DNA of 64,000 nt, taken from the NCBI GenBank assembly GCA_014584465.1, contig JACTMU010000093.1, positions 1 through 64,000 of the forward strand, written 5' to 3'. This stretch comes from Pseudomonadota bacterium. GTDB taxonomy: Bacteria; Bdellovibrionota; Bdellovibrionia; Bdellovibrionales; JACTMU01. Both the position numbers and the translations under genes were made by a program. The notes under the pieces are model-generated. The model was not told the DNA's origin, did no database searches, and saw only the letters and a program-made list of their open reading frames with translations. Positions 4,174-14,282 of the stretch are shown in pieces (position 1 is the first letter of the stretch; every line of letters begins with the position of its first letter).

Positions 4174-5451
4174 TTAATCAATCGTTAAGTCATACTGAAG
4201 AAGGATCACTCCACCATTGGGTTGTTCGGAATAGAAGAGTGTTGAGTTTTCTAATGAGAGATCCTCTCCATCAACGGTCACCTTTTCGGATCCAAAAATC
4301 TCAGAAACTTTGGTCTCTAGGCCAGTTACCTTAACGAGTGCCTTTAGATCATAGGCAATCGGAGTTACCAAGAAGTCAAACCCGATTGAGAAGTTGTTAA
4401 AGCTCTCTTCAGAATCCAAGAAAAAGGAGTTGCCACCTTGAACATCGGCAATCTTTTTGAGCACCTCCTTTTCTGCCATGTGCCCTACAGCAACTGTGGT
4501 TAAGCCAATCGACGCATTGGACTTGGATTGCACCAACTCACGGATGGTTTCAATCTCGTCGCTGTTGCGATGAAAGACGCCATCGGACACGAGAATGACT
4601 CGATTCAAATGTTGAGGATCAAAAGAGCGCTCCACCAGTTCAAATCCTCTTGCAAGCCCACCTTCGACATAATCTGAACCATTTGCCGTGAGCTCTCCTA
4701 TTTTTTTGATCGAAGCCGAGAGTGCTTTTCGCGTGACTCGAGTGGGTGGTAACAGTGTTTGAGGTTCTGTTCCAAAGGTCACTATGCTCAACTGATCTCC
4801 ATCTTTGAGTTGCTGAAGCACAAGAACGGCCACTCGTTGAATCCACTGAAGCAGTGTTGTGCGGCCATCTTTAGCTGCATTCATAGATCTACTTGTATCT
4901 ATGACAAGCGAGAGATTTAGAGGTGGACGTGCAAAACGATCTGAGGCGATCTCAGAACTAAGACCCAACTGCAACCAGAGTTTGCGGGCAGGAACATCCA
5001 CAGCGACGGCGGGGTGAGCACAGACGAGTTGCCCGCACTGTTCCGTGCTCAATGGGTAGTCGAACTCTGAGAGTAGATCCTGGACTTCAAAACTGTCAGA
5101 GTTAGGAACATCAAGACGATCTATCACATTTGAGCGTAGGAGTTCAAAATGTCTATGGCCGCCGGCCACCAATCTGGTCCCACTTGGAACAATGTTTGGT
5201 GCGAAGCTGAGGGCATCTGCTTCGGATCGAAGGGCTCGAAATGGTTCAACTTCAATCAGACTCCCCCGTTCACGAGAGTTGGAGATGTCGGTTGGCATAG
5301 GCATTGCCATCGGCATCGGTGGGAGGGGATTCTCTACAGGCGGCTTGGGTAGAGATGGAAGCCACAGAGTCATGTTTTTGGCAATCTGAAAGCCAAACTC
5401 AATCAAGTCACTTATTTGCTCATCGTCTTTAAGAACGCGAGAGCTGGCCAC
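4174..5451 (-). CDS. von Willebrand factor type A domain protein, 5' end uncertain
   Basis: The middle of the 425-residue frame holds a vWA domain with an intact MIDAS motif (DTSRS in LSLVIDTSRSMN), a following TFG segment and the VSDG strand. A Pro/Met-rich linker (PPMPMAMPMP) lies near the N-terminus. The region just before the vWA domain (DLLSEFDYPL, then VDVPARKLWLQLGL) resembles the N-terminal block of YfbK-type vWA proteins. Start: the only in-frame initiator is a GTG without a ribosome site, the frame is closed by TGA shortly upstream, and no signal peptide is seen although such proteins are usually exported. The gene may be 5'-truncated. Metal-dependent protein binding is expected from the domain; the partner is unknown. 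Confidence 0.7.
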   Translation of the reverse strand: MASSRVLKDDEQISDLIEFGFQIAKNMTLWLPSLPKPPVENPLPPMPMAMPMPTDISNSRERGSLIEVEPFRALRSEADALSFAPNIVPSGTRLVAGGHRHFELLRSNVIDRLDVPNSDSFEVQDLLSEFDYPLSTEQCGQLVCAHPAVAVDVPARKLWLQLGLSSEIASDRFARPPLNLSLVIDTSRSMNAAKDGRTTLLQWIQRVAVLVLQQLKDGDQLSIVTFGTEPQTLLPPTRVTRKALSASIKKIGELTANGSDYVEGGLARGFELVERSFDPQHLNRVILVSDGVFHRNSDEIETIRELVQSKSNASIGLTTVAVGHMAEKEVLKKIADVQGGNSFFLDSEESFNNFSIGFDFLVTPIAYDLKALVKVTGLETKVSEIFGSEKVTVDGEDLSLENSTLFYSEQPNGGVILLQYDLTID

Positions 5452-5719
5452 ACATTTGGTGTCATGTTGGCCGTGTCACCGCTCAATATTGTGGCCTAGG
5501 GTGTTCTCTGGTACACTGTGAACCCTGAATTAGGGGACTCAACTTTCTTGAACAGCACTCTCTCTGCACAGTCACAAATTTTCAATCTGAAAACGTAATT
5601 TCAATCAGTCTGTTTCCTGTATGCCTTTTCCGAGAGCTCCGACCTCAAGGATTGGTTCGTATGAGCGACACTCTAATGGCGAGCTCAAATGGGCAGCCTA
5701 AAATTGGATCTTGACCTAT

Positions 5720-5748
5720 ATGTCCATTTTTGATAGCATTTTGGACAT
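5720..5748. promoter_or_regulatory. Inverted repeat overlapping the start codon of the DUF4143 ATPase gene
   Basis: ATGTCCA and TGGACAT are exact inverted repeats 15 bases apart, and the right arm runs into the ATG at 5747. The second DUF4143 ATPase gene has the same arrangement with a different half-site (31375-31402). No ribosome site precedes either gene. An operator for self-repression, or a site controlling a leaderless transcript, is inferred. Confidence 0.55.
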
Positions 5749-6931
5749 GATTGCAAGATTTTGTAACATTCCGAAATCACAGAGTTTTTTTCTCTTTGGA
5801 CCTCGGGGCTCAGGTAAATCTACGCTCCTTAAGCACCATTTCGCCGATAAGGACGTCCTTTGGATCAATCTACTCAATCAAGCTACCGACCTGCAATTAG
5901 CGCACAATCCCGATCTCCTCATAAACCTTTGGTTACCCAAAAAACCGGAGTGGATCATTATTGATGAGGTCCAGAAAATTCCTCGGCTTTTGGATGTTGT
6001 GCACCTTGGGATTGAAGAATACAAAATAAGATTTGCTCTTACCGGATCCAGTGCGCGAAAACTGAAACGCGGCAACGCAAACCTGCTCGCCGGTCGGGCT
6101 GTTGAACGTCATTTAATGCCTTTCTCGTCTTTGGAACTCGGTGATCATTTTGAATTGGATAAGGCGCTTAGATTTGGTTTGCTCCCCAAGATATGGAGCG
6201 AGCAGCTCAGCTTTGACGAAGCTTCTGATTTTTTATACAGTTATGTCAACACCTACCTCAAAGAGGAGGTTGCAGCTGAACAGCTCGTACGAAACCTTGA
6301 GCCTTTTAGACGGTTTCTCGTCTCTGCGGCTCAATCAAACTCAAAGATTATCAATCACTCCGCGATTGAGCGCGATTGTGGGGTCCCCCGAAAGCAATCA
6401 GAGCGACATTTTGAAATCCTCGTCGACACCCTTATTGGTAACTTTCTCTATCCCTTCGACACTTCGGCAAGAAAGCGTCAAACTCAAAAGGCTAAATTTT
6501 ATTTCTTTGATACTGGGGTCGTACGCGCACTTCAAAAGCTCTCTGAGCAGACTCTTGAGAATTCCACGTTTGACTATGGTAATATTTTTGAAACTTTCGT
6601 GATCAACGAGTTTCTTAAAACTGCAAGCTCTCTTCAAAATCACTGGGAGTTTTCCTATTTTCAGACGACAGAAAACAGCGAGATTGACCTGATTATTGAA
6701 AGACCTAGGGGGAAACCCATTCTGATTGAAATCAAGTCATTCCAGAAATTCTCAGAGGATAAAGTTGGATCCTTTTTCAAACTGATCAAATCTTTTAAGT
6801 ATGAAACAGCTTATATCCTTTCCAATGACCCACAGAGTAGGGAGATTAATGGTGTGCGATGCTTGCATTGGCAAACCGGGTTAAATGAGATTTTTCTTAT
6901 ACCGAGGCGGGCCGACGAAGGTCCGATCTGA
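5747..6931 (+). CDS. AAA-type ATPase with C-terminal DUF4143 domain (copy 1)
   Basis: P-loop GPRGSGKST and Walker B IIIDEVQ mark the AAA_14 domain in the first half; a sensor-like LTGSSARKLKR follows, then DUF4143 with KFYFFDTG and a nuclease-like end (EIDLIIERPRGKPILIEIKSF). Start at 5747 rather than 5711 (TTG) or 5720 because homologues begin shortly before the P-loop, and the paralogue at 31403 has its ATG in the same place relative to an inverted repeat. The last ten residues (IPRRADEGPI) lie on a sequence also found at 3881-3901, so the original C-terminus may have been replaced by repeat DNA. The family is widespread and poorly understood; mobile-element or defence roles have been suggested. 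It stands alone. Confidence 0.88.
   Translation: MIARFCNIPKSQSFFLFGPRGSGKSTLLKHHFADKDVLWINLLNQATDLQLAHNPDLLINLWLPKKPEWIIIDEVQKIPRLLDVVHLGIEEYKIRFALTGSSARKLKRGNANLLAGRAVERHLMPFSSLELGDHFELDKALRFGLLPKIWSEQLSFDEASDFLYSYVNTYLKEEVAAEQLVRNLEPFRRFLVSAAQSNSKIINHSAIERDCGVPRKQSERHFEILVDTLIGNFLYPFDTSARKRQTQKAKFYFFDTGVVRALQKLSEQTLENSTFDYGNIFETFVINEFLKTASSLQNHWEFSYFQTTENSEIDLIIERPRGKPILIEIKSFQKFSEDKVGSFFKLIKSFKYETAYILSNDPQSREINGVRCLHWQTGLNEIFLIPRRADEGPI
6901..6921 (+). repeat. 21-base repeat shared with 3881-3901
   Basis: ACCGAGGCGGGCCGACGAAGG here differs by one base from 3881-3901. It encodes the last residues (PRRADEG) of the DUF4143 ATPase in the same frame as in the remnant at 3870-4076. Confidence 0.6.
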
Positions 6932-7073: not shown

Positions 7074-9458
7074 ATGGCGATTCCACAACGGACTGTAAGG
7101 ATCAACTTCCAATGCCTCATTTCAAACTTGATCGCTACCCTGTCGCTCTTTGCATCTTCTCCGTTGTGGGCGCAAGAGACCGAAGTGGAACATCCAGGGG
7201 CAGTGGGCTCCAACTTAAGTTCAGGTAAAATCTTTGTCGAGTTTCTACCCATCAAGGGCCAAACCATCTGGATGAGCAAGGCATTGGAACTTACGTTTAA
7301 ACGCGATCTTCGAAGAAATCCGCGATTGAACCTTGAAGAGGATTTGGGGAGAAAGTTGCAAACCTGTGCAACAGGGGACCTCTCTTGCATTCTCAAAGTT
7401 CACCAGGACCTTGGGACGGACATCGTGTTTGTTGGACGGGTGACGCCGGATCGTATCCACTATCGCATCTATGAGACCTGGACTCAGGCCATCGTTCGCC
7501 AAGGTGAGATGGAGGTCACACCTGGGGAATCGTCGCTCACTAAGTTGCGACAAGATCTTCTACGGGCGATCAAACCCTTTACGGAAAAGGGAGGGTTGCT
7601 CGACCAGAAACCTGTCTTTGTGCCAAATGTGACGAGTCAAGTGGGATCTCCTTCGGATGTGCAGGTGAGTTCTGGTGATGAGAAGAGTGTGAACCGTGTG
7701 GGATCCCATTGGATCACGATGTCCGTTGGGATATGGATGTTTTTACCCTACCTCCTTGGCACGCTTCTCGTGCGAAGAAGGAAGCTCTACTTTAAAAAGA
7801 TAAGAAACCCTTTGATTTGGACTTCAGTGATGGTCCTGGGCTTGCTACTTGTGGGTTTGGTCGACGGAGCCTTTCGATCCAATGTTGCGTTGCAGTTGCA
7901 ATTCAATGAGGCTTTACAAAACCTCTCCTCTTACTCTCTCTCCAACATCCAGTGGAGTCTTACTCTATTTAGTGGAATGGCTTACGGTTGGCTGATTCTG
8001 CTTTCGATGAAGATGATCTTTCCAACTCTTGAGGGGATTCGTCGCATTCGACACTGGAATCTTTTGGAGCTCCTTCGTGCTTGGGCGACCATCAGCGTCT
8101 TAAGGGCCATAACTTTGATGATTCCAACCGTTCTCTATGTTTGGGTTGCATTGAAAATTGGAGAGGCAATCGGGTTAAGTCGAAATGTACAGATATTCTC
8201 TCTGGTCCCAGTTTTAGGTTTACTTTCATTTTATTGGTTCTTTTCCATGCTCGAAGTTCTATCCCTCTATCTCGATCAGGAGTATGCCTATGGTGGAGCC
8301 ACAGAGGAGCATCCCTGGCATAAAGAGTTGCAAGCCTACTTCTTTGGTTATCTCAAACGACTCGGTCTAGATTCTTCGGATCGACTTTTGAAAAGAGTGC
8401 TCTTTTTGCCCTGTCATCAGTCTCACATACTGACCTACGGAAGTCCCCTCTCGCACTACCGAATTGTGATCGATCGAGATCTCCTTGATTTTGCAATAGG
8501 TCGGTTGAGCGAAGACCCGGGGGACTTCAACCCCAATGTCTTAGATCCATCTTTTGGAGCCCTGTTCCCAGGTGGTGCCGGTGATGTGGATGTGGAGAGA
8601 CGAAAACGTTTCTTTCAAAAAATACGTACGATACAACACGATCCAGAGAGGGTGAGTATGCTCGTCAACTGGGTCTATGGGTTCATACTTCCAGAGAGGC
8701 GTCACGAGTCGATCCCACTGATCTCCAACAACACTCAAGATCTCATGATCGTCGAGCAACTTCTCACTGAACAGGAGCGAGAGCGCGCTCAGGGACTTTC
8801 CCACCTTGATGAAGTGGACGATACAGATCCCACGGATCGAGATTTTCTTTTTGGGCTTCTTCTTCATCAGTTTGGAATGATCAAACGGCAGGAAACCTCT
8901 CTCTTGACTCCTCTTCATGCGCTTCACAGATCGCTTCATCGATTTCCTTGGTGGATTGCACAGGGTCTGGATCAAGGGTTCATCTATGGTCGCAAGATCT
9001 TCTACCGGTACTGGGCGGTCCTAGCCGACTCTTATGCGGCATTGAACTTTGGATTGCACCATTTCATGCAGTACCTCTATCTCTTTGTGGAACATGAACC
9101 ACGATTGATCACTGCAAGAGCAGACAAGCTGCGGCTTCACCGAGTGGCTCTAGCGATTTTGAAACGAACAAGAGAGAAGATGCACTATCAGAATGAAAAT
9201 CCTTTGGTGCAGGTCGCAGTCGATCGTCTTGTTTGGCTCTCTCAATACTTTTACTCTCCAATTGAAGTGGGAAGAGTGAGTGCTCTTCGTTTTGTCATTT
9301 ATGGTACTATTGCCGTCAGTGGAATTTGGGTTGGCGTGAACCTGATTTATAATGCATGGAAATATCATCCTTCCTATGAGCAGGTGATGTTGCAGGAAGA
9401 GCAAAAAGTGAAATCCTACAAAGAGAGGATTGAAAGCGAGAAGAAAAATGAAAAGTGA
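7074..9458 (+). CDS. Large exported/membrane protein of a MotAB-type operon
   Basis: First gene of a six-gene operon. The 794-residue product starts with a signal peptide ending near PLWAQE. A periplasmic domain of about 170 residues follows, with an IVFVGRV-type beta pattern that recalls the small alpha/beta domains of outer-membrane lipoproteins that sense or build complexes. Several membrane segments lie at roughly residues 215-380, then a long soluble part, one more membrane helix near residue 745, and a Lys/Glu-rich tail. I do not recognise the family. The next gene starts inside its last codons, so it is coupled to the MotA-like protein and probably forms part of the same envelope machine. 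Its length and mixed topology suggest a scaffold or regulator of the motor. Confidence 0.75.
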   Translation: MAIPQRTVRINFQCLISNLIATLSLFASSPLWAQETEVEHPGAVGSNLSSGKIFVEFLPIKGQTIWMSKALELTFKRDLRRNPRLNLEEDLGRKLQTCATGDLSCILKVHQDLGTDIVFVGRVTPDRIHYRIYETWTQAIVRQGEMEVTPGESSLTKLRQDLLRAIKPFTEKGGLLDQKPVFVPNVTSQVGSPSDVQVSSGDEKSVNRVGSHWITMSVGIWMFLPYLLGTLLVRRRKLYFKKIRNPLIWTSVMVLGLLLVGLVDGAFRSNVALQLQFNEALQNLSSYSLSNIQWSLTLFSGMAYGWLILLSMKMIFPTLEGIRRIRHWNLLELLRAWATISVLRAITLMIPTVLYVWVALKIGEAIGLSRNVQIFSLVPVLGLLSFYWFFSMLEVLSLYLDQEYAYGGATEEHPWHKELQAYFFGYLKRLGLDSSDRLLKRVLFLPCHQSHILTYGSPLSHYRIVIDRDLLDFAIGRLSEDPGDFNPNVLDPSFGALFPGGAGDVDVERRKRFFQKIRTIQHDPERVSMLVNWVYGFILPERRHESIPLISNNTQDLMIVEQLLTEQERERAQGLSHLDEVDDTDPTDRDFLFGLLLHQFGMIKRQETSLLTPLHALHRSLHRFPWWIAQGLDQGFIYGRKIFYRYWAVLADSYAALNFGLHHFMQYLYLFVEHEPRLITARADKLRLHRVALAILKRTREKMHYQNENPLVQVAVDRLVWLSQYFYSPIEVGRVSALRFVIYGTIAVSGIWVGVNLIYNAWKYHPSYEQVMLQEEQKVKSYKERIESEKKNEK

Positions 9459-10266
9459 AGAGAAGAAAGATGAAAAGCCCAAGTTCTTTTCGACCATAAA
9501 AAAGAGCACACTTGTGGTCAACCAGGCCGCAGCAGGTGCTGGTGTGGCAGGACTTTTGGGGTTTGGTGGGTTCTTCGTTGTCGCAAGCGTCTTTTTTGTA
9601 ACTGAGAACTACTTTATATCGATGCTCACGATCTCCTTTGGTCTTCTTGTCTATGTTGCAGGTCTTGATCTTGCAAAGATCCTCCTCTCTTCATTTACGA
9701 TCTTCTTTTCAAGTAAACATCTGATCACCAAGGCGGCTCATCTTCAAGACACACTTGAGGCTCTCAAGGAAGCTCTGAGGTTGAGAAGAGATGCTCGTGG
9801 AGAGATCAAAGGTGGTCCCGTTGAATCCAGTTCATCGCTTCGGCTTCCAAACAACCCTCTTGTTCATGAGATCAAAAAGGTCTTGGAAGATCGAAAGGAC
9901 TTCGAATACGCTGAATACATCAGTCATTCCTATTATGTTGAGTGCCATGAGCTCTATGACTATTCGATCACGAGTCTTGATTTTGTGGCTCACTCCATGC
10001 CGCTCTTTGGATTGATCGGGACCATTGTGGGACTGATTGCCATGTTTGATGGGCTAGGGGCTGACGTTACAGTGGAGACCCTCTCGCCTCAGCTGGCACT
10101 GGCTCTTAAGACGACACTCTATGGAGCGATCTTCTCTTCAGTCTACAAGGTTATAAGTTCGCGTTTTGAACAACGCATTCGGGCACTGGATTACGATTAC
10201 GAGACCTTTTCTCGAGCCTTAGAAGTGGTTGTTGAGAACAAGTGCAGCATTGAGGTTGAAGAGTGA
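9448..10266 (+). CDS. MotA/TolQ/ExbB-family proton-channel protein
   Basis: The last 100 residues carry the family core: LFGLIGTIVGLIAMFDGL, then a polar stretch, then a LALALKTTLYGAIFSSVYKV helix. Two more hydrophobic segments lie near the N-terminus and a helical cytoplasmic loop lies between, giving the usual membrane plan. Start at ATG 9448, overlapping the upstream stop; a TTG at 9430 is a weaker choice. The following gene encodes a MotB-like partner, so the two should form a stator-like complex that uses ion flow to drive movement or envelope work. Relation to flagellar MotA, Tol-Pal or gliding-motor (AglR-type) channels cannot be settled by eye. Last codons overlap the next gene (GTGA). 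Confidence 0.85.
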   Translation: MKSEEKKDEKPKFFSTIKKSTLVVNQAAAGAGVAGLLGFGGFFVVASVFFVTENYFISMLTISFGLLVYVAGLDLAKILLSSFTIFFSSKHLITKAAHLQDTLEALKEALRLRRDARGEIKGGPVESSSSLRLPNNPLVHEIKKVLEDRKDFEYAEYISHSYYVECHELYDYSITSLDFVAHSMPLFGLIGTIVGLIAMFDGLGADVTVETLSPQLALALKTTLYGAIFSSVYKVISSRFEQRIRALDYDYETFSRALEVVVENKCSIEVEE

Positions 10267-10856
10267 AAAAGAGATCCATGCGCCTTCAGCGTCCCGTAAA
10301 AACGGAATCTTGGCAGATCATCTACATGGATCTTATGACCAACATTATGGTCTTTTTTGTAATTCTATGGTCTCTCAATCAGGGTAAGAGTGAGGGGATC
10401 AGTGACACGGTCGGTGATACGACCACGCGTCTCATTGATCTTCCGGGAGACATACTCTTTGCTCCAGGTAAGACCGAGATTACGCAGGAGGGGAAGTCCA
10501 TCATTAAAAATCTCTTTTACACTTCCACTGGGTCCATTTTGAATTTTGATACAAGTGGACTGGTCAAGCGAATGCTCGTCATTCACGGACACACGGACAG
10601 CGATGGCAAGAAAGAGGAGAACATTCAGTTGGGCTTTGATCGTGCCTACTCTGCCTACCGGGAGGTTCTCTCCTACAGTCATGAGCTTCCGAACCACGTG
10701 ATCATCTGTTCTCATGCGGACAATACGCCTGAACAGGAGGTTCCAAAGTTTGAAGGAGCCGTGAATGCGGTTCAAAGAGAGACCTTGCGTGAAGCCAAGT
10801 CTAAGAACCGTAGGATCACCTTGGAAGACAAACTCATCAACAGGTTTCAACGGTAA
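10263..10856 (+). CDS. MotB-like protein with OmpA peptidoglycan-binding domain
   Basis: The 197-residue product has a short basic N-terminus, one membrane helix (MDLMTNIMVFFVILWSL) and an OmpA-type domain with the HGHTDSDG motif and a following FDRAYSAY helix. Asp23 at the membrane entrance sits where MotB has its essential proton-binding Asp, so an active ion path is likely. It would anchor the MotA-like channel encoded upstream to the cell wall. Starts at a GTG that overlaps the stop of the motA-like gene; its own stop overlaps the next ATG (TAATG). The OmpA domain is shorter than in flagellar MotB (total about 300 residues). Confidence 0.85.
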   Translation: MKKRSMRLQRPVKTESWQIIYMDLMTNIMVFFVILWSLNQGKSEGISDTVGDTTTRLIDLPGDILFAPGKTEITQEGKSIIKNLFYTSTGSILNFDTSGLVKRMLVIHGHTDSDGKKEENIQLGFDRAYSAYREVLSYSHELPNHVIICSHADNTPEQEVPKFEGAVNAVQRETLREAKSKNRRITLEDKLINRFQR

Positions 10857-12508
10857 TGAGAGGACTCGGAACAAAGACCATCACGACGACACTGCTGTTC
10901 ATCTTGTGCTCCGGCGTGGTTTGGAACTTGGAACTTCTTCGACCTGAACGTCTGAGAAACCTAGATTCATCTGTTCCGTTTGTGATAGGGCTTTTTGCCT
11001 TCTTCTGTGGCTCTCTCTTTTTTCTCTTTTGGGACTTTCAGACTCCAAGTCGATACGTTTTTCAGTGGATACGAGTGAAGGCAATGAGGTCTGAGGATGT
11101 GATCTTGCTGAGGCTCAGGAGAGTGGCCCTCATCATTAGGGAAAACAAGGGTGCAAAGGGTGTCGATCTTCCACCCACATTGCAAAAGGTCATCTATCAG
11201 GTGACGTTCCTTCTGGTGGGTCTTTTGACGTTTAACAACCGATCCGTGCACATTCTTAAAAATCTTCCTGATCAGATTACGATCTCACCTTCACGATTTT
11301 GTGATGAGAAGAAAGCTGATCGTGAATCAAAGCCGGAAAAGCTCGGGTGTGAACTTCTCCTGAGGGCGTATGATCTGGGGTACGCAAAGTCTCTTGGTTC
11401 ATGTGCTCCGGATGAAGATGAGGAGGTCAAAGAGATCTGTCACCTTCGTCGAGAAGATGAGCCCTACCTTCACTATGCCTGGAGGCAGCTGACCGATGCA
11501 ATGGCAGACCTTGCCTGGGTGTTTTCAGAAGAGTACAGGAAGATGCAGGAGGAACGTTTTTCTGGGCAGCTCAGAGCTTTGAGAGAGCTCTTTCATTTTC
11601 GAAAGAATGCCATCACGACAGCACCACGGAGTCAACACCACCTTTGGACCAACTTTCCACATCCAGAAGGAGGACTGATCTCGGTGCTGAACGAATCCCT
11701 CTCTCCCAACGAGTGTTTGGATCGCTACGCAAGACTTCCACTTTCTCTTGAGGATCCAGATCATCAGTCCATGTCACGCAAGCTGGATCTCATGATGGGA
11801 CACATTCTCTATTCTACGCGCTATGACCGTATGGCAGGTTATTGTAAAGAGTTTGTCGTTCATTGGAATGCTGGTTTCGATGCGTGTAAGAGACTGAGTG
11901 AAGATCCCTACACGTTCTTGAAGGAGCAGGGCAGTTTGGAGTCGGTGAGAGACATTTTTGATCGATTGAAGATCCGGTCCACACTTTCTGGGTTGCGTGA
12001 AGAGTTGAATCGACTTCAAAGCGAAGGTGGAGAGGGTGAACACCTTAAAGACGAGAAGGGCTTTAAGGAGGTGGTGAGCTTTCAGTGTGTTGTGGAAAAT
12101 CGAGCTTCCAACTCCCCATCGTTTTCCGAGCAATCCACTGAGATCGACGGTCACTCCTTTGCGGTGCGAAGCTTGAGTTTGCCGGTTCATGATGACAATG
12201 GTCGTATTGAGTTTCGTTCCTATCAAGATCTGGCTCGACTCTTTGCAAAGGATTTTCGATACACACCAATTACGAGTCGTGCCAAGATTGATCCGGACCT
12301 CGATGAGGAGGCCATTCGAGGTTCACTCTCAGATCCAGGGTTTCTACTCTCACGACTTGAGTTTTTACGAAATGCCGACATCTTTTTGGGCCATCGATGG
12401 ATCCAGGATCGACCCGATCTTCTGGAGGTCTATCCCTATCATCTGCATCTCTATCGTTTTGTGACACTCTTTCGTGAGAGTTATCGAAAGGAGAAGGGAA
12501 GATTATGA
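10856..12508 (+). CDS. Membrane protein of unknown function in the MotAB-type operon
   Basis: The 550-residue product has two or three membrane helices in the first 130 residues (LLFILCSGVVWNL, PFVIGLFAFFCGSLFFLF, VIYQVTFLLVGLLTF) and then about 420 residues of soluble, charged, helical sequence with several Cys (for example CDEKKADRESKPEKLGC and CAPDEDEEVKEIC), suggesting a periplasmic domain with disulfides. No family recognised. It overlaps both neighbours (TAATG before, ATGA after), so it is made together with the channel proteins and is a likely partner of them. Confidence 0.75.
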   Translation: MRGLGTKTITTTLLFILCSGVVWNLELLRPERLRNLDSSVPFVIGLFAFFCGSLFFLFWDFQTPSRYVFQWIRVKAMRSEDVILLRLRRVALIIRENKGAKGVDLPPTLQKVIYQVTFLLVGLLTFNNRSVHILKNLPDQITISPSRFCDEKKADRESKPEKLGCELLLRAYDLGYAKSLGSCAPDEDEEVKEICHLRREDEPYLHYAWRQLTDAMADLAWVFSEEYRKMQEERFSGQLRALRELFHFRKNAITTAPRSQHHLWTNFPHPEGGLISVLNESLSPNECLDRYARLPLSLEDPDHQSMSRKLDLMMGHILYSTRYDRMAGYCKEFVVHWNAGFDACKRLSEDPYTFLKEQGSLESVRDIFDRLKIRSTLSGLREELNRLQSEGGEGEHLKDEKGFKEVVSFQCVVENRASNSPSFSEQSTEIDGHSFAVRSLSLPVHDDNGRIEFRSYQDLARLFAKDFRYTPITSRAKIDPDLDEEAIRGSLSDPGFLLSRLEFLRNADIFLGHRWIQDRPDLLEVYPYHLHLYRFVTLFRESYRKEKGRL

Positions 12509-13104
12509 TAGCACTTCGATGCCTCTTTATTCTATTCTTGGTGTTGAATGTGGCACGCGGGTGGGCTCTCAATTATGATGCGGATCGAAGAGAGGCCTAC
12601 ATTGAGTCTGCTTTGGCGAGTCTTTACGGAGTGAAGGTGACCACCTTGTGGAACAGCTACAAGTACTTGACGACGGTGGAGAGGAACGAGTGCCATTCGG
12701 GAATTGATCGTCTGAAGGTCACCTGTTTGATTGAAGCGGCCAAGAGAGGTTGCTCTCACCTTTCAGGAGCCGCGAAGTCAAGCTGCCTTCTCTATAGCGA
12801 TGTCATCTTGATCAACAAGCTGGGCGAGGACAAGATGATCTCACCAAGAGAGCGTTACAGCATCATGATGGAAGCCGGTGACTATCGAGGAAGGTTCATT
12901 CAAGAGATCACCTATCTCTATGCAACGCTGGCAACAGAGTATGGTTTGTCTAAAGAAAATCAATGTGAAGTCAACGATTTGAGATGTTTTGGAAGATCGA
13001 TCAATCAATTTTGTGTTTCGTATGGGAGTCGCAATGATCTCTCGTGGCAGTACTGTGTTGGAGGCCTTCTTTGGTTCATTGTAACTCATAGGACGGAGAG
13101 GTGA
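12505..13104 (+). CDS. Small exported Cys-rich protein of the MotAB-type operon
   Basis: A 199-residue product with a signal peptide (LRCLFILFLVLNVARGWA) and about eight Cys in the mature part, spaced as in a disulfide-bonded periplasmic protein. No family recognised. It overlaps the upstream gene by four bases (ATGA) and the downstream gene by one (TGATG), so it belongs to the same operon. A periplasmic accessory of the motor is inferred from position only. Confidence 0.72.
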   Translation: MIALRCLFILFLVLNVARGWALNYDADRREAYIESALASLYGVKVTTLWNSYKYLTTVERNECHSGIDRLKVTCLIEAAKRGCSHLSGAAKSSCLLYSDVILINKLGEDKMISPRERYSIMMEAGDYRGRFIQEITYLYATLATEYGLSKENQCEVNDLRCFGRSINQFCVSYGSRNDLSWQYCVGGLLWFIVTHRTER

Positions 13105-14282
13105 TGGTGAAAGGAGAACTTCTTAAAATTATAGAGTCAGAACTCAACAACCTGGAGGCTGCCGGACTCTATAAGGAGGAGCGGACCGTTGGACTTCAGC
13201 CCGATCAGATGGTGGAGCTTTCAGGAGGTTCAACCTATCTCAATTTCTGTAGCAGTGACTATTTGGGTTTGGCTTCAGATTCTGATCTTGGGAGAGTCGA
13301 AGAGGGTTCCTCACCATTTGGATCTTCATCGACGCGTCTTTTGTGTGGGACTTTGAAGGTGCATCAAGATCTGGAGAGCTGGCTCTCGCTCTTCTTCGAT
13401 CGAGAGGCCTCGATGGTGCTACCCACGGTCTATGAGGCTCACCTTGGGATCTTTGAAGCCCTTTGCGGAGAGAAGGATGTGATCATCTTGGATGCTCTTG
13501 CATCTTCTTCACTTCGTGATGGGGCCCGACTCAGTCAGGCCAAGGTTCTCTTCTATCAGAACAATGATATGCAAAATCTTGAAGAACAACTTAAAAAAAC
13601 AGAGCACCATCGCTTTCGCTTCATCGTGACCGATGGGGTGTTCACCCTCAACGGGATTCCAAGTGATCTGATCTCAATGGTGGATCTTTCTAAAAAGTAC
13701 AATGCCACTTTGATCGTGAGTGACGTGGAGGGGGTTGGTGTGATGGGGGCTACAGGTCGGGGAGCTCTTCAATGGCAGAATGTACAAACAGAGGTGGATC
13801 TCCTCATTGGATCCCTTGGCCACCTCATTGGGGAGAGTGGAGGAGGATTCATCTCAGGGCGTAAGGATCTGATTCGGTGGCTCAAACAAAAATCCAAACC
13901 CTATCTCTTTCAAATTCCCTCATCTCCTAGAAGCCTATTTCCCTACATCAAACTGATCGAGCGCCTCAATGGGGATCAAGCTCCACTGGATCGCCTCAAC
14001 AAGCTTAAAAATCTCTTTGGTCAAAGTCTTGTGGACCATGGACTTGAAGTCCTAGGCTTTGATCACCCGATCATCGCAGTGCGAATTGGAAATGCAGTGG
14101 CCACTCAGCGAATCGTGAACTATCTCTTTGAGAAGCAGATCTATGCCACCGGCTATTGTTATCCCTTGGTGCCTCGAGGAGAGGCTCTCCTTCGTTTTCA
14201 AATCACTGCAGGCCACTCCGTTGAGGCACTTACGGAATCAATTCAGACACTGACCCATGCGGTTCATCGATTTTTGGACTAG
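13104..14282 (+). CDS. AONS/KBL-fold PLP-family protein lacking PLP-binding residues (likely pseudoenzyme)
   Basis: The fold is that of alpha-oxoamine synthases (8-amino-7-oxononanoate synthase, KBL): YLNFCSSDYLGLA, FGSSSTRLLCGT, the F-NDM-LE segment, and a late LLRFQITAGHS. The three residues that hold PLP are gone. The stacking His in the DALNHAS motif is Ser135 (DALASSS). The His of the D-x-H motif is Glu210 (SDVEGVG). The Schiff-base Lys of the TLGKALGG loop is His241 (SLGHLIGE; codon CAC at 13821). Numbering is from the GTG at 13101; I prefer the ATG at 13104 with GGAG upstream. All other landmarks and the 392-residue length are normal, so this is not decay by frameshift. Last gene of the MotAB-type operon. 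A binding or structural role is inferred. Confidence 0.85.
   Translation: MVKGELLKIIESELNNLEAAGLYKEERTVGLQPDQMVELSGGSTYLNFCSSDYLGLASDSDLGRVEEGSSPFGSSSTRLLCGTLKVHQDLESWLSLFFDREASMVLPTVYEAHLGIFEALCGEKDVIILDALASSSLRDGARLSQAKVLFYQNNDMQNLEEQLKKTEHHRFRFIVTDGVFTLNGIPSDLISMVDLSKKYNATLIVSDVEGVGVMGATGRGALQWQNVQTEVDLLIGSLGHLIGESGGGFISGRKDLIRWLKQKSKPYLFQIPSSPRSLFPYIKLIERLNGDQAPLDRLNKLKNLFGQSLVDHGLEVLGFDHPIIAVRIGNAVATQRIVNYLFEKQIYATGYCYPLVPRGEALLRFQITAGHSVEALTESIQTLTHAVHRFLD

Follow-up and report, generated by a model that had tools for sequence, protein, structure and literature searches.

The last gene of a six-gene operon in a Bdellovibrionales genome was found to encode a full-length AONS-fold protein that descends from the lineage of 2-amino-3-ketobutyrate CoA ligase (KBL, glycine C-acetyltransferase) and has lost its PLP site. 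The gene lies in the window, namely the whole 64,000-nucleotide stretch of DNA analyzed here, and its protein is hereafter called pseudo-KBL. A sequence-only reading of this DNA had proposed a PLP-less AONS-fold protein locked into a MotAB-type operon, and the homologue search bore this out, since such a protein recurred under selection and in the same gene order in three phyla. The explanation that we favor, and consider likely, is that an envelope complex driven by protons and anchored to peptidoglycan took over a copy of KBL, on a single occasion, as a cytoplasmic subunit without catalytic role.

Loss of the PLP site in the window protein

The gene and the residues that bear on its cofactor site are located as follows.

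13104..14282, + strand: pseudo-KBL, 392 aa; AONS fold without the PLP residues
13503..13505, + strand: Ser134 (TCT), replacing the PLP-stacking His (E. coli KBL H136)
13719..13730, + strand: S206-D-V-E209, replacing D-x-x-H (E. coli KBL D210 and H213)
13821..13823, + strand: His240 (CAC), replacing the Schiff-base Lys (E. coli KBL K244)
14157..14159, + strand: Cys352, at the position of E. coli KBL F356; Cys in 13/13 operon members and in 0/37 other AONS-fold proteins

The ATG at 13104 overlaps the stop codon of the upstream periplasmic gene opE as TGATG, an overlap already noticed in the sequence-only reading, and GTG 13101 is an alternative start. In phmmer searches, residues 3–385 were aligned to E. 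coli KBL (1FC4) with E = 5e-83, SPT, BioF and ALAS scoring behind, and the other solved KBLs also aligned end to end with the protein. For the comparison of residues, the KBL sequence from the E. coli K-12 genome served as the reference.

The replacement of three hallmark PLP residues was confirmed at Ser134, Glu209 and His240 counted from the ATG, the numbers given earlier being one too high. The second of these sites had been described as a D-x-H motif; its His is indeed replaced by Glu, whereas the motif is D-x-x-H and its first residue, the pyridine-N1 Asp (KBL D210, BioF D204), had been overlooked and is also lost, being Ser206 in the window protein. Likewise, the rest of the fold had been called intact, and the RFQITAGH segment is present as described; the pocket residues S185, M186 and S274 of E. 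coli KBL, however, are lost too (Thr181, Leu182 and Gln270, respectively), and the segment given as FxNDMxxLE reads YQNNDMQNLE. The carboxylate Arg (R368) is retained as Arg364. The alignment around His240 is ungapped and no Lys occurs within 13 residues of it, the nearest being residues 254 and 261 (14 and 21 residues off), and thus a shifted alignment that would restore the Schiff-base Lys was ruled out. Nor can His in place of Lys be put down to a simple sequencing error, as the codons AAR and CAC differ in two bases or more.

By descent and by its full-length AONS fold, the protein belongs with KBL, while the Schiff-base Lys, the stacking His136 and the D210-x-x-H213 motif of that enzyme are absent from it. 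Its scores also lay below the NCBIfam equivalog cut-offs (342.8 against 460 bits for NF005394, 310 against 493 bits for TIGR01822). It was 37–39% identical to the intact KBL of its own genome, whose gene is followed by that for threonine dehydrogenase (G000:C107). Four further AONS-fold matches were seen in this genome (C107, C109, C58 and C27), those on C58 and C27 being weaker and the latter partial.

Erosion of the site and selection within one clade

The 13 operon KBL-like proteins fell into a single clade (support 98/97), with true KBL as its sister group (100/99). All four residues H136, D210, H213 and K244 were kept in 37/37 comparison AONS-fold proteins, which comprised E. coli KBL and BioF, nine further KBLs, and BioF, SPT and other paralogues from the window's own and related genomes; the full set was kept in 0/13 operon members, which excludes chance (Fisher p ~4e-12, computed with 36 controls). 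At the equivalent positions, in this order, the window protein reads S/S/E/H. A Tyr or Asn stands at the Lys position in L034 (N/D/L/N), L035 (D/D/L/Y), L036 (N/D/M/Y), L037 (N/D/F/Y), L041 (N/D/L/Y) and L067 (N/D/L/Y), and an Asp or His in L043 (H/H/L/D), L068 (H/D/H/H) and L069 (R/D/H/H); the Lys is kept in L038 (H/H/S/K), L040 (H/H/N/K) and L042 (H/D/L/K). The Lys is therefore absent in 10/13 members, where it is replaced by His, Tyr, Asn or Asp.

Operon homologues that keep the Lys had been named beforehand as evidence against the idea of a dead synthase. In part such homologues were found, as three of the 13 do keep it; all three lack H213 and two of them D210, which points to gradual erosion rather than to an ordinary enzyme. 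Because these three are scattered over the tree, a minimum of three losses of the Lys must be assumed unless it was regained (the KBL tree gives four), and the residues that replaced it differ. Moreover, the six catalytic positions (H136, S185, D210, H213, K244 and R368) were kept by a mean of 5.0/13 members, compared with 10.3/13 at other conserved positions (permutation p = 0.0016 over a set of 35 superfamily-conserved positions). The cofactor site has thus been eroded repeatedly within the clade.

The fold itself has been maintained. Between the Lys-less proteins L034 and L036, pN was 0.18 and pS was 0.78, indicating that pseudo-KBL is under purifying selection; the two are 71% identical, compared with 58–65% for the opA, opD and opE of the same pair, and the same order held for L030/L031 and L042/L043. 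With catalytic residues missing and the fold kept under purifying selection, the protein qualifies as a pseudoenzyme on sequence grounds and is probably non-catalytic. The KBL tree and a tree of MotA, MotB and opD agreed in their strongly supported groups. The longest branch of the clade is that of the window protein (1.53), whose site is also the most eroded.

The operon, its partners and its recurrence

Pseudo-KBL is preceded in the window by five genes, and every junction in the operon overlaps.

7074..9458, + strand: opA, 794 aa; no curated family
9430..10266, + strand: 278 aa; proton-channel subunit resembling MotA/TolQ/ExbB; match to Pfam PF01618 above its cut-off (E = 8e-16)
10263..10856, + strand: MotB-like (MotB/OmpA-like) subunit, 197 aa; Pfam PF13677 and PF00691, above cut-offs
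10856..12508, + strand: opD, 550 aa; large Cys-rich domain preceded by N-terminal TM helices; no curated family
12505..13104, + strand: opE, 199 aa; Cys-rich, with a signal sequence; no curated family

The Pfam search recognized MotA_ExbB, MotB_plug, OmpA and Aminotran_1_2 parts and nothing else, and thereby confirmed the MotA/MotB-like pair reported earlier, while opA, opD and opE gave no significant family match in Pfam, NCBIfam or PADLOC. The profile of the MotA-like protein, which in the window is 51–61% identical to the other operon copies, matched solved MotA/PomA best and then TolQ. The MotB-like protein consists of one TM helix with a conserved Asp23, a MotB_plug region and a short OmpA-like domain. 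This proton-carrying Asp (motif YMDLMT) was invariant among the aligned MotB-like proteins and was also visible in L048 and L049. With both the domains and the TM-helix Asp present, the pair would belong to the MotA/MotB-type motors, at scores far below the equivalog cut-offs of flagellar MotAB/PomAB stators (PomA 41.1 against 341, MotB 30.6 against 277) and of TolQ (30.7 against 221 bits); of Tol-Pal, only a TolB-N/LpoB-like fold in opA was recognized.

As judged from hydropathy and alignment, opA has a signal peptide, a periplasmic domain (~50–175), several TM helices (~214–398), a conserved cytoplasmic domain (~405–725) and one more TM helix (~737–758). In its AlphaFold model (pLDDT 70, pTM 0.56), the N-terminal domain matched LpoB (4q6l, E = 1.5e-3, probability 1.00) and TolB (E = 2.6e-3) by Foldseek, which is suggestive of an LpoB/TolB-N/PelC-like fold. 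The cytoplasmic domain, as well as L039:6883-10161, contains a motif resembling a degraded HExxH (LLHQFGMI, LLREVGVV, LLSEIGHV), following a strand that resembles M48 proteases. None of the local matches that hhalign gave with E. coli HtpX, LoiP, BepA and YcaL was significant, although the M48 profile and YcaL alone did align at the expected place; a degenerate M48 protease is therefore not claimed, and we treat a possible second pseudoenzyme among these genes as no more than a lead. The model of opD was of low confidence (pTM 0.43) and gave no significant fold match in Foldseek. Eight Cys of opD and six of opE are invariant in 13 sequences, suggesting that both may be disulphide-bonded periplasmic proteins; hydropathy and signal sequences place opE and most of opD probably outside the cytoplasm. 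By the same means pseudo-KBL, which lacks a signal peptide and TM helices, would lie inside it.

The operon with its pseudo-KBL is shared with 12 other genomes of Bdellovibrionota, Myxococcota and Gammaproteobacteria. Searches with opD and MotB located the operon in two families of the window's own order (G027 and G029), elsewhere in Bdellovibrionota (G1110, G142, G143 and the Oligoflexales genome L039), in Myxococcota (L042, L043 and G1143) and in Gammaproteobacteria (Pleionea L034, Teredinibacter L035, L036, L037, Pseudohongiella L041 and G840). Among the sampled genomes it was rare (6/369 Bdellovibrionota, 3/195 Myxococcota and 2/369 Gammaproteobacteria), the relatives being mostly metagenome assemblies and the Gammaproteobacteria being thinly sampled. 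No relative was found among the plasmids or viral contigs searched, and the open PMC literature gave no description of such an operon. The flanking genes were unrelated from genome to genome, and thus the unit is these six genes.

In the window, an AAA_14/DUF4143 ATPase (5711-6931) lies just upstream, a neighbour that the operon was not seen to have in any other genome checked, and further upstream a VWA-domain protein is encoded on the opposite strand (4174-5451, − strand). In L041 and L037, too, VWA proteins are neighbours of the operon, which may be a coincidence. The adjoining genes L041:14492-16141, L037:7274-8821 and L043:13979-15547 encode VWA or ABC1-kinase proteins with a C-terminal ribosomal-L12-C-terminal-like domain (PF00542).

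In L048 and L049, which belong to one family, the operon lacks pseudo-KBL, and opA, with 370 and 249 aa, respectively, is without its cytoplasmic domain. In the tree of MotA, MotB and opD these two nest among the carriers of pseudo-KBL, beside L068, which has both, indicating a joint secondary loss; as they are close relatives, this co-loss counts as one event. It may be read as a hint of joint action of pseudo-KBL with the cytoplasmic domain of opA. In L039/G148, opA is of full length, the gene order is altered and no pseudo-KBL was found in the assembly, so that the subunit is not strictly required.

Proposed role of the probable pseudoenzyme and comparison with known systems

Under recruitment as a subunit, the MotA/MotB-like pair would sit in the inner membrane as an ion-driven motor unit, for MotB keeps the proton-carrying Asp and an OmpA-like domain. 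The periplasmic side would be built from opD, opE and the LpoB/TolB-like domain of opA. On the cytoplasmic side, the KBL-fold protein would dock on the cytoplasmic domain of opA, or on the cytoplasmic part of MotA, and could serve there as a scaffold or brake, or as a ligand sensor through its emptied pocket. It had been supposed earlier to be part of a motor; its physical membership is inferred from the operon linkage and the co-loss. The lipid or acyl-CoA binding role also supposed for it found no support. More tentatively, the operon may represent an undescribed class of proton-driven envelope machine, spread over three phyla, with a KBL fold of enzymatic origin as the regulatory subunit in the cytoplasm and with an emptied PLP/CoA pocket that either binds a metabolite gating the motor (glycine, CoA or acyl-CoA) or is purely a docking surface for opA.

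The main rival to recruitment is an altered but active enzyme, in which His240 would perform acid-base chemistry on non-covalently bound PLP or PMP, its product or activity serving the envelope system. A His naturally takes the place of the Lys in the active enzymes ColD/E1/SpnQ (PMC8987622), and also does so in the window protein, L068 and L069. L068 keeps H136, D210, H213 and S185 and lacks only the Lys among the four residues, with His instead as in active ColD-type dehydratases, and such activity may be possible for it. Similarly, residual PLP chemistry is possible in some relatives, namely L042, which keeps H136, D210 and K244, and the two other members with the Lys. For the window protein an active enzyme is unlikely because the N1 Asp and both the stacking and the D-x-x-H His are gone too, and the S274 equivalent is likewise replaced; the Tyr, Asn or Asp of other relatives at the Lys position, moreover, conform to no common alternative active-site pattern. 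We give less weight still to a heterodimer in which the protein would be the catalytically silent partner, the active AONS-fold subunit being encoded at another locus, e.g., its own genome's KBL, and the operon link being regulatory. The need of serine palmitoyltransferase for its Lys-less subunit SPT1 (PMC6148460) and the presence of the intact KBL would accord with this, whereas G027, G029 and G149 carry the operon protein with no other AONS-fold protein found in the assembly, and what is conserved with it from phylum to phylum is a set of motor genes rather than an AONS enzyme.

A Zorya-type anti-phage defence system with pseudo-KBL as the sensor appeared very improbable and was rejected. 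Although the distribution is patchy and the MotB-like protein matched PADLOC ZorB models with E down to 1e-15, neither ZorC/D/E nor any other recognizable effector was found, PADLOC was empty for opA, opD, opE and pseudo-KBL, the MotA-like protein with its 278 aa lacks the long ZorA tail, the flanks are not defence genes, and the plasmids and viral contigs searched yielded no relative. The least credible reading is a functionless, decaying paralogue carried along by translational coupling. Its start codon does overlap a stop codon, and within the clade both branch length and erosion of the site are greatest in the window protein; nevertheless, the frame is intact in 13 genomes of three phyla and the family-specific Cys is found in 13/13, and recurrence together with pN far below pS between Lys-less members rules out a lone decayed copy. 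For the clade as a whole, the data thus argue against decay.

In this bacterial branch of the KBL lineage the cofactor site was given up repeatedly, and yet the protein stayed fixed to a motor operon with three unannotated families, an operon that would define a candidate new ion-driven envelope system. The natural series within the clade (Lys kept, Lys → His, Lys → Tyr, all residues lost) lets the passage from enzyme to pseudoenzyme be followed.

The window protein resembles KBL in fold, length, end-to-end alignment and its position as a sister clade, and differs from it in that the Lys, both His, the N1 Asp and S185 are replaced and that its gene does not adjoin tdh. The ColD/E1 3-dehydratases likewise have a PLP fold with the Lys replaced by His (PMC8987622); unlike the window protein, which lost further cofactor residues, they belong to the sugar aminotransferase branch and are active enzymes that use PMP. 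The operon shares with the MotAB/PomAB, TolQR, ExbBD, AglRS and ZorAB motors a MotA-like protein and a MotB/OmpA-like protein with a conserved Asp, and with Tol-Pal the TolB/LpoB-like periplasmic domain of opA, whereas it adds three unannotated partner families and pseudo-KBL to these, its proteins being far below the equivalog cut-offs of the flagellar and Tol proteins. In a survey of MotAB and their non-flagellar homologues, the latter were placed together as generic transporters of ions, the function of some being unknown (PMC12505986), and Zorya demonstrates that such a motor can couple to unusual accessory proteins (PMC11890865). The nearest precedent is SPT1/LCB1, the non-catalytic, Lys-less AOS-fold subunit of eukaryotic serine palmitoyltransferase (PMC6148460), which has likewise been kept without the PLP Lys as a non-catalytic partner; in contrast to it, the window protein is bacterial and KBL-derived, and its link is with a MotAB-type operon, where SPT1/LCB1 has a catalytic AOS partner.
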